From NCBI GenBank assembly GCA_016781845.1, contig JADDPP010000443.1, forward strand, positions 4,961 to 45,369: DNA of 40,409 nucleotides. The letters are read 5' to 3'. The stretch comes from Rubrobacter sp. GTDB taxonomy: Bacteria; Chloroflexota; Chloroflexia; Thermobaculales; Thermobaculaceae. Position 1 is the first letter of the stretch, and each line of letters begins with the position of its first letter. The notes beneath the pieces are model-generated. The model was given only the letters and a program-made list of their open reading frames with translations. It was not told the origin of the DNA and did not search any database. A program made the translations under genes and the position numbers. Shown here one piece after another: positions 36,092 through 40,347 of this stretch.

Positions 36092-37321
36092 TCAGTCCTT
36101 GTACGGGTCGTAAACGTCCTCTCCAGCCATTACCACCCCAAGTGGCTTGAGCGTGTGCAGGACGCGGATGCTGCCTGCGTGTGCCGCCAGCACCTGGGGC
36201 AGGCGGCGATACACGTGCGGGCTCTCGTCCGTGCCCGCACCGCGTAGCTCCACGCCCTCGCGCTTCAGCCACTCGTGCATCATCTCGCGGCTTACCTCTC
36301 CCGGACTCACGACCTCCGCCACCCGGCGTCCCTGCGCGTCCTTCCTGTAGCGGACCTTGCCCGCGGCCCTGCGGCGGCTCATCACACGGCCCGCGCCGTG
36401 GATGGTGCTTCGGAGCGCGGCCTTCGCCTCCTCCGTGTCCACACCCTCCACCACGACGCTCAGGTCACCCATTGAGCCGCCGACGAAACCACGCTGGCCG
36501 GGCCAGGCAGGCGTCGCCCCCTTGCGCACCACGAGCATCTCCTCGCCGTTGTGCTTCTCTACCCATGCGTAGTTATGGTGGTTGTGTACCTCGTCCGTCG
36601 CCTTCGCTCCAAGTATGAGCAGCACCTGGCTCACGACGTAGTCGCGCCCGGCGTAGGCATACTTCCCCGCAAGCTCCATGGCCTGCATGTACGCCTGTCC
36701 CAGGGGGCTGTGCAGGGAGAGCACAGTCGCGGGCTGGTCCATGGACTCGCCCGGCGCCTTGTCATCGAACTTGCGTCCCGCCGCCAGATTGAGAAAGCCG
36801 CTCGCGGTGCGGTGGCCGAGCCCCCGGCTGCCGAAGTGAGCACTCACCCACAGCCAGCCCTCCTCGTCTTCGAGCAGGTCAACGAAGTGATTGCCGCTGC
36901 CGACTGTGCCGAGCTGGCTCTGCGCGAGCTGCTTGAGCTTGCCGACCTCGCGGATGTCCTGCCAGGTTGGGTCATCGAAAAGCTCGTGGTCCACGTTCTG
37001 GCCGCTGCTGCGTCCCACGCCGAACGCTATCTTGCGCTGGATCTCGTCGAGTATCCTGCCGATGCGCGGCTTGACATCCTCCGCGCGAAGATCAGTGCGC
37101 ACGCCCTTCAGACCGCACGCGATGTCGTACCCTACGCCGCTTGGAGAGACGGCCTGGTAGTAGCCAACGACGCCACCGATGGGCATGCTGTAACCCTTGT
37201 GTCCGTCCGCCATCAGCGCGGCAGCGCCTGCGTACTCTCCGGTGGCACAGCGCCTGATCTGGCTGAGGGTACTCTCGTCGTGCTCGCCCCATACGGGAAT
37301 GTTGTCAATCACCTTGTACAT
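36092..37321 (-). CDS. rtcB: RtcB RNA ligase
   Basis: GTP- and Mn-dependent 3'-phosphate/5'-OH RNA ligase of 409 residues, an RNA repair and (in archaea and animals) tRNA-splicing enzyme. Family motifs are GGVVGYYQAVSPSGVGYDIACG with the metal-binding Asp and Cys, GTVGSGNHFVDLLED, the His-rich EVHNHHNYAW, RKGATPAWPGQRGFVGGSMG, and STIHGAGRVMSRR with His308 as the expected guanylylated residue. There is no intein. The ATG at 37321 follows GGAGAAGATGAT. No archease, RtcA or RtcR gene is in the window, but a tRNA-mimicking RNA candidate lies about 180 nt upstream on the same strand, consistent with an RNA-repair locus. Confidence 0.95.
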   Translation of the reverse strand: MYKVIDNIPVWGEHDESTLSQIRRCATGEYAGAAALMADGHKGYSMPIGGVVGYYQAVSPSGVGYDIACGLKGVRTDLRAEDVKPRIGRILDEIQRKIAFGVGRSSGQNVDHELFDDPTWQDIREVGKLKQLAQSQLGTVGSGNHFVDLLEDEEGWLWVSAHFGSRGLGHRTASGFLNLAAGRKFDDKAPGESMDQPATVLSLHSPLGQAYMQAMELAGKYAYAGRDYVVSQVLLILGAKATDEVHNHHNYAWVEKHNGEEMLVVRKGATPAWPGQRGFVGGSMGDLSVVVEGVDTEEAKAALRSTIHGAGRVMSRRRAAGKVRYRKDAQGRRVAEVVSPGEVSREMMHEWLKREGVELRGAGTDESPHVYRRLPQVLAAHAGSIRVLHTLKPLGVVMAGEDVYDPYKD

Positions 37322-37503
37322 ATCATCTTCTCCGGTTTCGTCAGGTTCGGGTACGTCCAGGGACAGGGCGCGACTGCCGCGATTGAGCCAGGACCGGGCG
37401 GCGAGTCATAGAGCCCCAGCGTAAGCAGGTGAGGAGCAGTGGCGACAGTACGCCTGCGAGCTTCTGGCGCAAGGGGTTCAACGCTATCAGTCTGATAGGA
37501 AGG

Positions 37504-37629
37504 CCCGAGTGGACAGAGCTGTGAAACCTGCCTGCTGCTCTACCCGTTGAGCTACAGCGGCAAACCACTGGCGGGAACCGAACCCGCAACCCTCAGATCG
37601 TGGACTGTTTGCAAGCTCTGTCAGTCGGG
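37504..37629 (-). ncRNA. tRNA-mimicking RNA, probable bacterial Y RNA (YrlA-like)
   Basis: On the minus strand, 5' to 3': CCCGA and GACAGAGCT begin a terminal helix that closes with AGCTCTGTC and TCGGG, interrupted by internal loops, plus AAAC/GTTT. Inside come a T-arm (GCGGG-TTCGGTT-CCCGC, 37572-37588), a hairpin CAGTGG-TTTG-CCGCTG matching a 7-bp tRNA acceptor with its ends joined, then TA (tRNA positions 8-9) and a D-arm (GCTC-AACGGGTA-GAGC with the GG and final A). Normal tRNA order is thus permuted and no anticodon arm is evident. YrlA Y RNAs have this tRNA-like module on a Ro-binding stem and are often encoded with rsr and rtcB; rtcB follows here. A permuted or decayed tRNA gene is the alternative. 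Confidence 0.65.
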
Positions 37630-37871
37630 GCGCGCCCCGTCCTGGCCGTAGATCGCTTCGGGCCTCAGGACCATCGCATCCTTATCGAAGAAACTCGATG
37701 GCGGGTCGAAGCGGGAGGCAGTTGCCTGCCCGATCTGGCGGTTGGAGGACTGGGGACCAGATCGAGCTCGGCGAACGGCATCTCCGGGCTTCGACCATCG
37801 AAGCCGGCGTGGAGCATACGTATCTCGTCGCGTATGAGCTGGTTCATGAGCCACACCATCCTTAGGACCAT
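37621..37871 (-). pseudogene. Possible frameshifted small gene
   Basis: Two overlapping minus-strand frames each look protein-like over part of their length. The frame from ATG 37871 reads NQLIRDEIRMLHAGFDG and MPFAELDLV. The frame ending at 37621 reads ASRFDPPSSFFDKDAM and VLRPEAIYGQDGA. Joining them needs one shift near 37745. There is no ribosome binding site and no recognised family; it could be a decayed gene or chance. Confidence 0.28.
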
Positions 37872-37924
37872 ACAAACCGCCAGTAACGGGGGGTGCTGAG
37901 GGAGCGTGTGATTTGTTGGAGCTA

Positions 37925-37954
37925 CTCCTTGTGGAGAGTCAGATTCGAACAGAC
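37925..37954 (-). other. Second T-arm-like hairpin
   Basis: GTCTG-TTCGAAT-CTGAC on the minus strand (37938-37954) has a canonical tRNA T-loop and a stem with one mismatch. It is followed by CTCC-ACAA-GGAG and TAGCTC, echoing the order seen in the Y RNA candidate 300 nt away, but no D-arm or closing helix could be completed. No 5' acceptor strand for an ordinary tRNA is found upstream. It may be a second, divergent tRNA mimic or a tRNA remnant. Confidence 0.35.
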
Positions 37955-38091
37955 CGCGCTTCTGAGACGCCTGTAAGCTCCGACTGCTAGGGCACGCGCT
38001 ACGACAGCGAGGTACACAGTATCATACGCGCGGATTTACGTCAAGAGCGCGCATTCCGGCATTCCGGCCCAGCGCGTACCTGCATACCGTA

Positions 38092-38165: not shown

Positions 38166-39023
38166 ATGATACCGACCCAGCCCTTTGGACGCACAGGACA
38201 CGAGAGCACCCGGACCATCTTTGGCGCGGCGGCTTTCAGCAGCGTGACGCAGGAGGAGGCGGACCGCACGATGGAGCTGCTGCTCCAGCAAGGCGTCAAC
38301 CACATTGACACAGCCGCCTCCTACGGCGACTCCGAGCTTCGCATCGGCCCCTGGATGGAAGGCCACCGCTCCGACTTCTTTCTCGCCACCAAGACGGGTG
38401 AGCGGACGTACCATGCGGCACACGACCAGATCCGCCGCTCGCTCGAACGGCTGCGCGTAGACCAGGTGGACCTCATCCAGCTTCACAACCTGGTGGACCC
38501 CGATGAGTGGGAGCAGGCCCTGGGACCGGGCGGGGCACTCGAAGCAGCAATCCAGGCCCGAGACGAGGGGCTCGTGCGCTTCATCGGCGTAACCGGGCAC
38601 GGAGTGACGGTTGCCGAGATGCACAGGCGGGCGCTGGAGCGCTTCGACTTTGACTCCGTGCTGCTGCCGTACAACTATGTGATGATGAGGAACCTCCAGT
38701 ATGCGGCTGACTTCGAGGCGCTCTTCGATCTCTGTCAGCAGCGAAGCGTCGCTGTGCAGACGATCAAGGCGATCACGCAGGCGCCGTGGGGGGAGCGGGA
38801 GCAGACGGCCGCCACCTGGTACGAGCCGCTGCGCGAGCAGGCTGATATTGACCTTGCCGTGAACTGGGTGCTGGGCCGGCCCGGCGTCTTCCTCAACACC
38901 GTGGGGGACATCCACGTGCTGCCACAGGTGCTCGATGCGGCTACCCGTCTGAGCGGGAGGCCGGCGGACGAGGAGATGGGACGGCTCCTCGCGCAGCGCG
39001 AGATGGAGCCGCTGTTCGTATAA
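38166..39023 (+). CDS. Aldo/keto reductase
   Basis: NADP-dependent oxidoreductase of 285 residues in the AKR fold. The catalytic tetrad is Asp48 and Tyr53 ([12 protein letters not shown]), Lys76 (LATKTGER) and His107 (DLIQLHNL). The C-terminal part lacks the classical RS-type NADP motif length, as in shorter bacterial AKRs annotated as predicted oxidoreductases. The ATG at 38166 follows AAAGGAACAACGA. The LarA-type gene begins 25 nt after its stop, suggesting one transcript; the pair might act on linked 2-hydroxy acid or aldehyde substrates (inference). Confidence 0.9.
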
Positions 39024-39048
39024 GATGGCCAATGCAGAAGGGCGCCAC

Positions 39049-40347
39049 ATGCACGTAGAGCTGCCTTACGGTCGTACCCGCAAATCTGTTCTGTTGCCGG
39101 ACACGACCGTGGTGCTGGAGCCCGTCCACGTTCCGGGCCTGCTGGACGAGCACGCGGCGGTGGTGGAGGCGATGCGGAAGCCTGTCGGGACCCCGCCCCT
39201 CCGCCACCTCGTGGGCTCCCACGACCGAGTTTGCATAGTCATCTCCGACATCACCCGGCCTACTCCGAACGAGCGCCTCATCCCGTGGATCCTCCAGGAG
39301 CTCCCGCATGTGCCGCGAGACCGGTTCACTATACTCAACGGCACCGGCTCACACCGAGCGAACACGCGCGAGGAGCTCGTCGGGATGCTGGGGGAGGAGA
39401 TAGTCGAGACGGTCCGTATCGTCAACCACTCGGCGTTCAAGCCCGAGGAACTGGTCCACGTCGGCGTTACCTCACTCGGCGGCGAGATCAGCCTCAACCG
39501 CGAGTGGGTCGAGGCTGATGTGCGTATCTCCACAGGGTTCATCGAGCCGCACTTCTTCGCGGGGTTCTCCGGCGGCCCGAAGGGGATCATGCCGGGCATC
39601 GCGGGGATAGACTCGATCATGCACTTTCACAATGCGTGGATGATCGGTCATCCGAAGGCGACGTGGGGTGTCCTCGACGGAAACCCGCTGCAGCGGGAGA
39701 GCATCGAGGCAAACGAGTTCTGCCCGCCGGACTTCCTCCTCAACGTGACGCTCAACGGCATGCGCCAGATCACCGGAGTCTTCGCGGGACACTGGCTCCA
39801 GGCGCACAGGGTTGGCTGTGAGTTCTGCAGGGAGACCGCGATGGTCCCGGTCGAGGAGCCGTTCGACCTTATCGTGACCACTAACGGTGGCTATCCGCTC
39901 GACCAGAACCTGTACCAGGCGGTGAAGGGAATGTCGGCAGCTCACCAGATCGCCAGCGAGGGTGGGACAATCGTGTGCGCCGCGGAGTGCAGTGACGGAC
40001 TGCCCGAACACGGTAACTTCAAGGATCTGTTCAAGCTGCGCGAGTCGCCTCGCGAGCTGCTGCAGATGATAGAAGAGCCGGGCTTCGCCGTATTCGACCA
40101 GTGGGAGGTGCAGAAGCTCGCGCTCATCCAGCTGCATGCGCGCGTCCACCTCTACTCAGAGCTCCCCGACGAAGATGCCGAGCTTGCAAACCTCACCCCC
40201 ATTCAGGATCTTCAGTCCCACATAGATAGCCTCGTCGAGGGGCTTGGTCCAGACGCCCGGATCGCCGCTCTGCCCTGGGGACCGTTCACAATCCCCTACG
40301 TGCGTGTGCGAGCGCCGCGGAGAATGGCGGTCACAGCGTCAGAATAG
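39049..40347 (+). CDS. LarA-family nickel-pincer-dependent racemase homologue (DUF2088)
   Basis: Protein of 432 residues related to lactate racemase LarA, which uses a nickel-pincer nucleotide to epimerise 2-hydroxy acids. Seen: the N-terminal DITRPTPNERLIPWIL (substrate/cofactor Asp, Arg), LNGTGSHRANT with its His, and GFIEPHFFAGFSGGPKGIMPG with the His and the Lys that anchors the cofactor. Many LarA homologues act on other 2-hydroxy acids, and this one is not necessarily a lactate racemase. The ATG at 39049 was chosen because AGAAGGG is six nt upstream, whereas an ATG at 39025, 1 nt after the preceding stop, has none. LarB, LarC and LarE are not in the window. The stop is 62 nt before the window edge. 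Confidence 0.86.
   Translation: MHVELPYGRTRKSVLLPDTTVVLEPVHVPGLLDEHAAVVEAMRKPVGTPPLRHLVGSHDRVCIVISDITRPTPNERLIPWILQELPHVPRDRFTILNGTGSHRANTREELVGMLGEEIVETVRIVNHSAFKPEELVHVGVTSLGGEISLNREWVEADVRISTGFIEPHFFAGFSGGPKGIMPGIAGIDSIMHFHNAWMIGHPKATWGVLDGNPLQRESIEANEFCPPDFLLNVTLNGMRQITGVFAGHWLQAHRVGCEFCRETAMVPVEEPFDLIVTTNGGYPLDQNLYQAVKGMSAAHQIASEGGTIVCAAECSDGLPEHGNFKDLFKLRESPRELLQMIEEPGFAVFDQWEVQKLALIQLHARVHLYSELPDEDAELANLTPIQDLQSHIDSLVEGLGPDARIAALPWGPFTIPYVRVRAPRRMAVTASE

Follow-up and report, generated by a model that had tools for sequence, protein, structure and literature searches.

According to our analysis, the window (the whole stretch of DNA that was analysed, 40,409 nucleotides) carries two Y RNAs of a divergent, YrlA-related family of Chloroflexota, which stand in tandem ahead of rtcB and probably form with it a compact RNA-repair unit acting on cleaved tRNAs. 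The mechanism is inferred, without expression or binding data. Work on bacterial Y RNAs has covered few lineages, and what they do in RNA repair remains unsettled.

Y RNA 1 (37498-37638, minus strand) is a complete YrlA-like RNA, slightly wider than the 37504-37629 given in the preliminary description, in which a tRNA-like module in circular permutation sits on a stem of two helices. Along the minus strand, an outer strand is followed by the 9-nt strand GACAGAGCT, a linker, the T-arm, an acceptor-like hairpin, TA and the D-arm; the partner strand of the 9-bp helix, the loop CACTCG and the outer strand that closes the stem come last. In alignment A2, the outer helix H1 (37630-37638 with 37498-37506) forms 7/9 pairs with G-T counted; H2 is a perfect 9-bp helix (9/9 pairs) of GACAGAGCT at 37614-37622 and AGCTCTGTC at 37512-37520, evident in the sequence and supported by covariation. 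The T-arm GCGGG-TTCGGTT-CCCGC (37571-37587), with G in place of A58, the 6-bp acceptor-like hairpin CAGTGG-TTTG-CCGCTG (37555-37570) and the TA with the D-arm GCTC-AACGGGTA-GAGC (37537-37554) were all located in the sequence and in the covariance-model (CM) alignment; we take the TA to be tRNA positions 8-9. Alignment with relatives also placed in Y RNA 1 a degenerate counterpart of an anticodon-arm-like hairpin, CAG-TCCACGAT-CTG (37594-37607), of only 3 bp and without a CU loop, whereas relatives have 4 bp and 7-nt CU loops. The 3' internal-loop motif CACTCG (37506-37511) is conserved, as ACUYG occurs in 59/68 relatives. This degenerate hairpin, UGCA instead of UACA, the T-loop without A58 and two unpaired H1 positions are the departures of Y RNA 1 from the family, and may be signs of some decay. 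The preliminary description, made from sequence alone, had proposed a T-arm, an acceptor-like hairpin, TA and a D-arm in permuted order within a perfect 9-bp helix extended by further helices. The order held on the minus strand (by sequence, CM alignments and covariation) and so did the helices, the outer one with 7/9 pairs; the acceptor-like hairpin, given as "6-7-bp", has 6 bp.

A cmscan search with all 4227 Rfam families gave YrlA as the sole match in the whole window (43.7 bits, E=1.3e-6), and this match covers Y RNA 1 end to end over the full model (1-114). The score does not reach the YrlA gathering score of 69; therefore, Y RNA 1 is a divergent variant and not a textbook YrlA. Against R2, a covariance model containing no window sequences, Y RNA 1 scored 74.0 bits (E=3.5e-15 in 40 kb, model positions 1-133), far above chance expectation. 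Its folding energy is unremarkable (z=-0.09), so the support comes from homology and covariation and not from stability. ARAGORN found 0 tRNA genes in the window; thus an ordinary cloverleaf with an anticodon arm, which would have refuted the proposed RNA, was not recovered. Like YrlA (RF02553; Salmonella and other bacteria), Y RNA 1 has the permuted T-acceptor-TA-D order on a long stem built from both ends, a 3' ACUYG-like motif, a second Y RNA nearby and rtcB as a neighbour. In contrast to YrlA, it has a second outer helix, H1, and an internal loop CUC../ACUYG, and reaches only the 43.7 bits given above; relatives and Y RNA 2 add an anticodon-arm-like hairpin, and the assembly of the window's genome lacks rsr. 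A conserved basal stem joining the 5' and 3' ends, the general criterion for a Y RNA, is present (7/9 pairs in H1 and 9/9 in H2), while a Ro60/Rsr gene in the same genome, another such criterion, is missing from the window's assembly and present in most relatives. The assignment to YrlA-type Y RNAs in the preliminary description was thus upheld by topology, covariance-model homology and the Ro60 company of relatives, but for a divergent variant below the Rfam threshold.

Y RNA 2 (37901-38000, minus strand; R2 31.3 bits, E=2.5e-5), which had previously gone unnoticed, lies on the same strand 260 nt upstream of Y RNA 1. It has the same stem ends with the GGAGCT-UACA motif, a 15-nt anticodon-arm-like hairpin (GCGU-CUCAGAA-GCGC), a T-arm with TTCGAAT and a mini acceptor (CTCC-ACAA-GGAG), and no D-arm. 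The motif pattern of the family matched exactly twice in the window's genome, at Y RNA 1 and at the Y RNA 2 locus, and not once in the control. Upstream of Y RNA 2, a script found a promoter-like TTGACG-17-TACTGT (38016-38044, minus strand), a weak consensus match that falls below the threshold of a stricter promoter scan, in which none was reported. Between Y RNA 1 and Y RNA 2, the ORFs at 37624-37875 (minus) and 37600-37896 (plus) had no Pfam match. Genes for an aldo/keto reductase and a nickel-dependent lactate racemase-like protein (LarA) occupy the plus strand at 38166-40347 and diverge from the Y RNA/rtcB unit; the contig ends where the window ends.

The next gene after Y RNA 1 on the same strand is rtcB, encoding an RNA ligase (36092-37321, minus strand; PF01139, E=1.7e-68), as the preliminary description had stated; Y RNA 1 ends at 37498 and rtcB starts at 37321. 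Its translation contains GVGYDIACG, GSGNHF, AHFGSRGLG, HHNYA and STIHGAGR, which we take to be the metal/guanylylation (catalytic) motifs of RtcB. The nearest named relatives are RtcB proteins of Chloroflexia (Roseiflexus, Chloroflexaceae), from which we infer that the organism belongs to this class. Members of this rtcB subfamily in other loci (L037-L045, L066-L083) have no Y RNA beside them; therefore, the link between Y RNA and rtcB is not conserved, and the earlier suggestion that the RNA serves RtcB directly was not established.

The structural conservation of the RNA is shown by its relatives. Most Rfam YrlA matches across these genomes were tandem tRNA genes imitating the T-acceptor-D order, and they were dropped as evidence; they set the background, since against our own model they cover only the middle (positions ~30-108) with ~55 bits at most. 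The few non-tRNA matches shared a common motif, AGCTTACA on the 5' side and ACTYG on the 3' side. Alignment A2, with 7 copies including the window, covers both stem helices, the additional hairpin and the T-, acceptor and D-arms; 93.6% of its cells were paired (33-46% in slid controls), with double-sided changes in 22/38 pairs. R2 was built from 15 Chloroflexota copies, none from the window, in which 31/38 pairs had changed on both sides; its alignment was made with R1, which held Y RNA 1, so that there is mild leakage of alignment and none of sequence. Of 400 genomes of the phylum searched with R2, 24 had a match with E no higher than 1e-5. In 53 further copies from 18 fetched regions, double-sided changes were found in 37/38 pairs, and pairing was 91.1% versus 35-50% in slid controls; this alignment was fitted to R2 and leans towards the model. 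Pairing in these 53 relatives was 96.8% in H1 and 83.4% in H2, and every one of the 18 pairs of the two helices, including the 9 of H1, had changed on both sides. Among 68 copies, GC.UACA and ACUYG (59/68 each) were more common than the T-loop (46/68) and UAGCUCA (28/68), so the stem ends are the constant part of the RNA and the tRNA-like head its variable part.

Elsewhere in Chloroflexota, single Y RNAs or arrays of them precede Ro60 genes, most of which encode a divergent form of the protein (see below); in the taxonomic family of the window the RNA is seen in just one further genome, G005. We consider it very likely that the Chloroflexota family represents a previously uncatalogued, divergent branch of YrlA-related Y RNAs that is widespread in the phylum. 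In L233, L234, L235, L236, L237, L238 and L242, Y RNA-like copies are repeated in tandem, about 3 to 7 per array, either preceding Ro60 genes or lying at the ends of contigs, and some of these copies have no recognisable tRNA-like head. Two genomes, G233 and G465, have additional Y RNA copies that are not near a Ro60 gene (L239, L240).

The linker before the T-arm forms a hairpin with a 7-nt loop in many copies of the family. A hairpin of 3 or more bp was found in 38/55 copies with a recognisable T-arm (23.5 in shuffled linkers), and in 14/38 of these hairpins the loop starts with CU (1.4 in shuffled linkers, with a maximum of 6 in 500). The control linkers were shuffled by composition, and the scan included the copies in which the pattern was first noticed. 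A CU loop start is the anticodon-loop signature C32-U33. Examples are CUUCGAA in L133, CUCAUAA in L099, CUUCUAA in L229 and CUCAGAA in Y RNA 2. Since the anticodon-like arm is then followed by a variable-loop-like AAGGUY, the copies with a CU hairpin appear to imitate an entire permuted tRNA. Published YrlA has been described as imitating the D, T and acceptor arms only (PMC8394870). The CU-NNN anticodon-arm-like hairpin, absent from described YrlA, is therefore probably a new feature of the Chloroflexota members.

Family Y RNAs adjoin genes for ~500-aa proteins with helical repeats and a VWA domain, which are not called TROVE by Pfam. Such genes stand beside Y RNAs in L099, L134, L133, L165, L167, L229-L233, L236-L238 and L242 (mapped at L099:3106-4662, L134:4433-5968, L133:1430-2860, L165:9390-10967 and L167:9471-10946, and also at L166:8039-9775), and classical TROVE genes in L199 and L245. 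An AlphaFold model of the protein (pLDDT 71) matched below 1e-3 only the Ro60 structures 2i91, 9l5y and 1yvr, its profile also finds genuine TROVE proteins, and tblastn links both groups with E down to 9e-12; on these grounds we identify it as a divergent Ro60. It is thus very likely that Chloroflexota have a Ro60 branch missed by the Pfam TROVE model, with the reservation that the fold is predicted. The locus in the window has in this way led to a coherent, strongly covarying Chloroflexota Y RNA family, often in arrays, and to a Ro60 branch undetected by Pfam. In many loci the divergent Ro60 gene is followed by a gene for a ~300-aa protein without annotation and by one for an E1-like enzyme of ThiF type. 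L133 and L166 contain large tRNA arrays and a Band-7 protein, with an RNA ligase as well in L133. Arrays of about 20-34 tRNA genes beside Y RNAs were located at L133:7087-12411, L166:10478-14107, L084:4129-7059 and L245:7468-9549, and these arrays sit with Band-7, RNA ligase or rtcB genes. Such loci recall the trn array/rtcB/slipin regulon that stress induces in Anabaena (PMC10272220).

Ro60 was not found in the assembly of the window's own genome with four profiles (PF05731, PF25045, A1, A6), and neither was the divergent form; the absence of rsr from the window, stated in the preliminary description, was likewise upheld. A weak A6 profile match (G000, C193) was rejected as Ro60, because the protein is a membrane VWA protein and its gene adjoins a DUF58-like one. 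The assembly is 96.7% complete in 502 contigs, and therefore it cannot be excluded that Ro60 is missing through incomplete assembly. The partner could have been lost recently, could lie in the unassembled few percent or could have been replaced by another protein; each of these remains possible. No tRNA array was found near the Y RNAs of the window. A locus without Ro60 and with Y RNAs beside RtcB offers a natural test of a Ro60-independent role of Y RNAs.

The RNA-repair operon rsr-yrlBA-rtcBA of Salmonella is induced by tRNA fragments, and YrlA has been proposed to be a competitive inhibitor (decoy) of an anticodon nuclease (PMC7790460); YrlA also tethers PNPase (PMC8394870). As in this operon, two Y RNAs directly precede rtcB on one strand of the window, so that of the features defining rsr-yrl-rtc operons, Y RNAs beside rtcB on the same strand are present and rsr in the cluster is not. 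The window cluster further differs in lacking rtcA, in having no RtcR seen adjacent and in belonging to a different phylum. The closest precedent, from the same phylum, is L245, with the order 20 tRNA genes, Y RNA, rtcB and classical rsr. Here too a Y RNA of the same family immediately precedes an rtcB; unlike the window, L245 has a classical TROVE/vWA_Ro60 gene and the 20 tRNA genes, and the two RtcBs are only ~30% identical. The Ro60/Y RNA systems of phages, such as the Ro60 of Thermus phage phiLo (PDB 9l5y) and the case proposed in Listeria phage CKA15 (PMC12282133), share with the Chloroflexota family a Ro60-type protein and nearby structured small RNAs. In contrast to these systems, where Ro60 is present, the window looks chromosomal and lacks it.

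In the explanation that we favour, the gene neighbourhood is shown and the functions are inferred. The two-helix stem with its UACA and ACUYG loop motifs would be a docking site for a Ro60/Rsr-type protein, as inferred from the gene neighbourhoods of the family. The permuted tRNA-like head would imitate a tRNA, so that the RNA or its bound particle engages tRNA-handling enzymes; this is inferred from work on YrlA, which rests on PNPase tethering, modification by TruB and DusA and a possible decoy function for anticodon nucleases. In the response to cleaved tRNAs, RtcB would reseal the ends, and the Y RNA would steer decay or titrate a tRNA nuclease. A role in the response to tRNA damage is itself an inference from the co-location with rtcB.

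Two other readings accept the RNAs as genuine and are, in our opinion, unlikely. The RNAs could serve RtcB independently of Ro60, as a structured 5' leader or processed RNA from the rtcB transcript, as an RtcB-bound sensor of tRNA ends or as a substrate circularised by RtcB. In its favour, two copies have been kept on the same strand before an rtcB that looks catalytically complete, no Ro60 was found in the genome, and G233 and G465 have the extra copies away from Ro60 genes. Against it, rtcB orthologues elsewhere lack the RNA, and the Ro60-docking ends are kept, at least in Y RNA 2. The RNAs could also be decaying, non-functional relics of a lost Ro60/Y RNA/tRNA-array island, placed beside rtcB by chance. 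This would agree with the absence of Ro60 from the assembly and of a tRNA array nearby, with the deviation of Y RNA 1 at several conserved positions and with the restriction of the RNA in the taxonomic family otherwise to G005. However, Y RNA 1 reaches 74 bits and has kept nearly all of its helices (9/9 pairs in H2, and complete T-, acceptor and D-arms). Pairs should have been broken by neutral decay since the divergence from G005, and two copies were retained.

Two further alternatives, in which the structure would be that of a tRNA, are all but excluded. Ordinary tandem tRNA genes, or a degenerate tRNA, might look permuted, and most YrlA matches in relatives proved to be exactly such tandem mimics; yet ARAGORN finds none in the window, the 4-nt acceptor loop leaves no room for tRNA ends, and true tandem tRNAs match only ~30-108 with at most 55 bits, whereas the match of Y RNA 1 extends over 1-137 and takes in both helices of the stem. 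A true circularly permuted tRNA gene, with ends joined by RtcB into a functional tRNA, would account for the V-T-acceptor-D order, the adjacent RNA ligase and the anticodon-like arm that Y RNA 2 and relatives carry. This is contradicted by the acceptor loop of the window copies, which has 4 nt and no CCA, the degenerate anticodon hairpin of Y RNA 1, the absence of a D-arm from Y RNA 2, the variation of anticodons and loops across relatives and the conservation of a Y stem instead of splice-type junctions. The preferred reading of two Y RNAs ahead of rtcB can be carried further, into a bolder version that we regard as doubtful: the Chloroflexota Y RNAs may imitate a whole permuted tRNA, anticodon arm included, and work with tRNA arrays, RNA ligases and the divergent Ro60 as decoys or guides that counter anticodon-cleaving nucleases, while the window pair would have been rewired to RtcB alone without Ro60. 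Because many members carry the anticodon-arm-like hairpin, the idea of an anticodon-nuclease decoy is directly testable.

Some minor features were observed in the related loci. One relative of rtcB (L071 / L105, G006:C489) is split by a long in-frame insertion within an 811-aa frame, which is probably an intein. An rtcB homologue from the same taxonomic family as the window (L200:9458-10411, G005:C109) lies in several frames, with a stop and frameshifts, and the Y RNA/Ro60 locus of G005 is on a different contig from this broken homologue. Y RNA-like permuted tRNA modules with an encoded CCA in the acceptor loop (for example, CCCAGCC-ACCA...GGCTGGG) were seen at L087:7895-8106, L089:742-952, L101:635-845 and L117:1844-1902, the L087 copy being near a TROVE gene.
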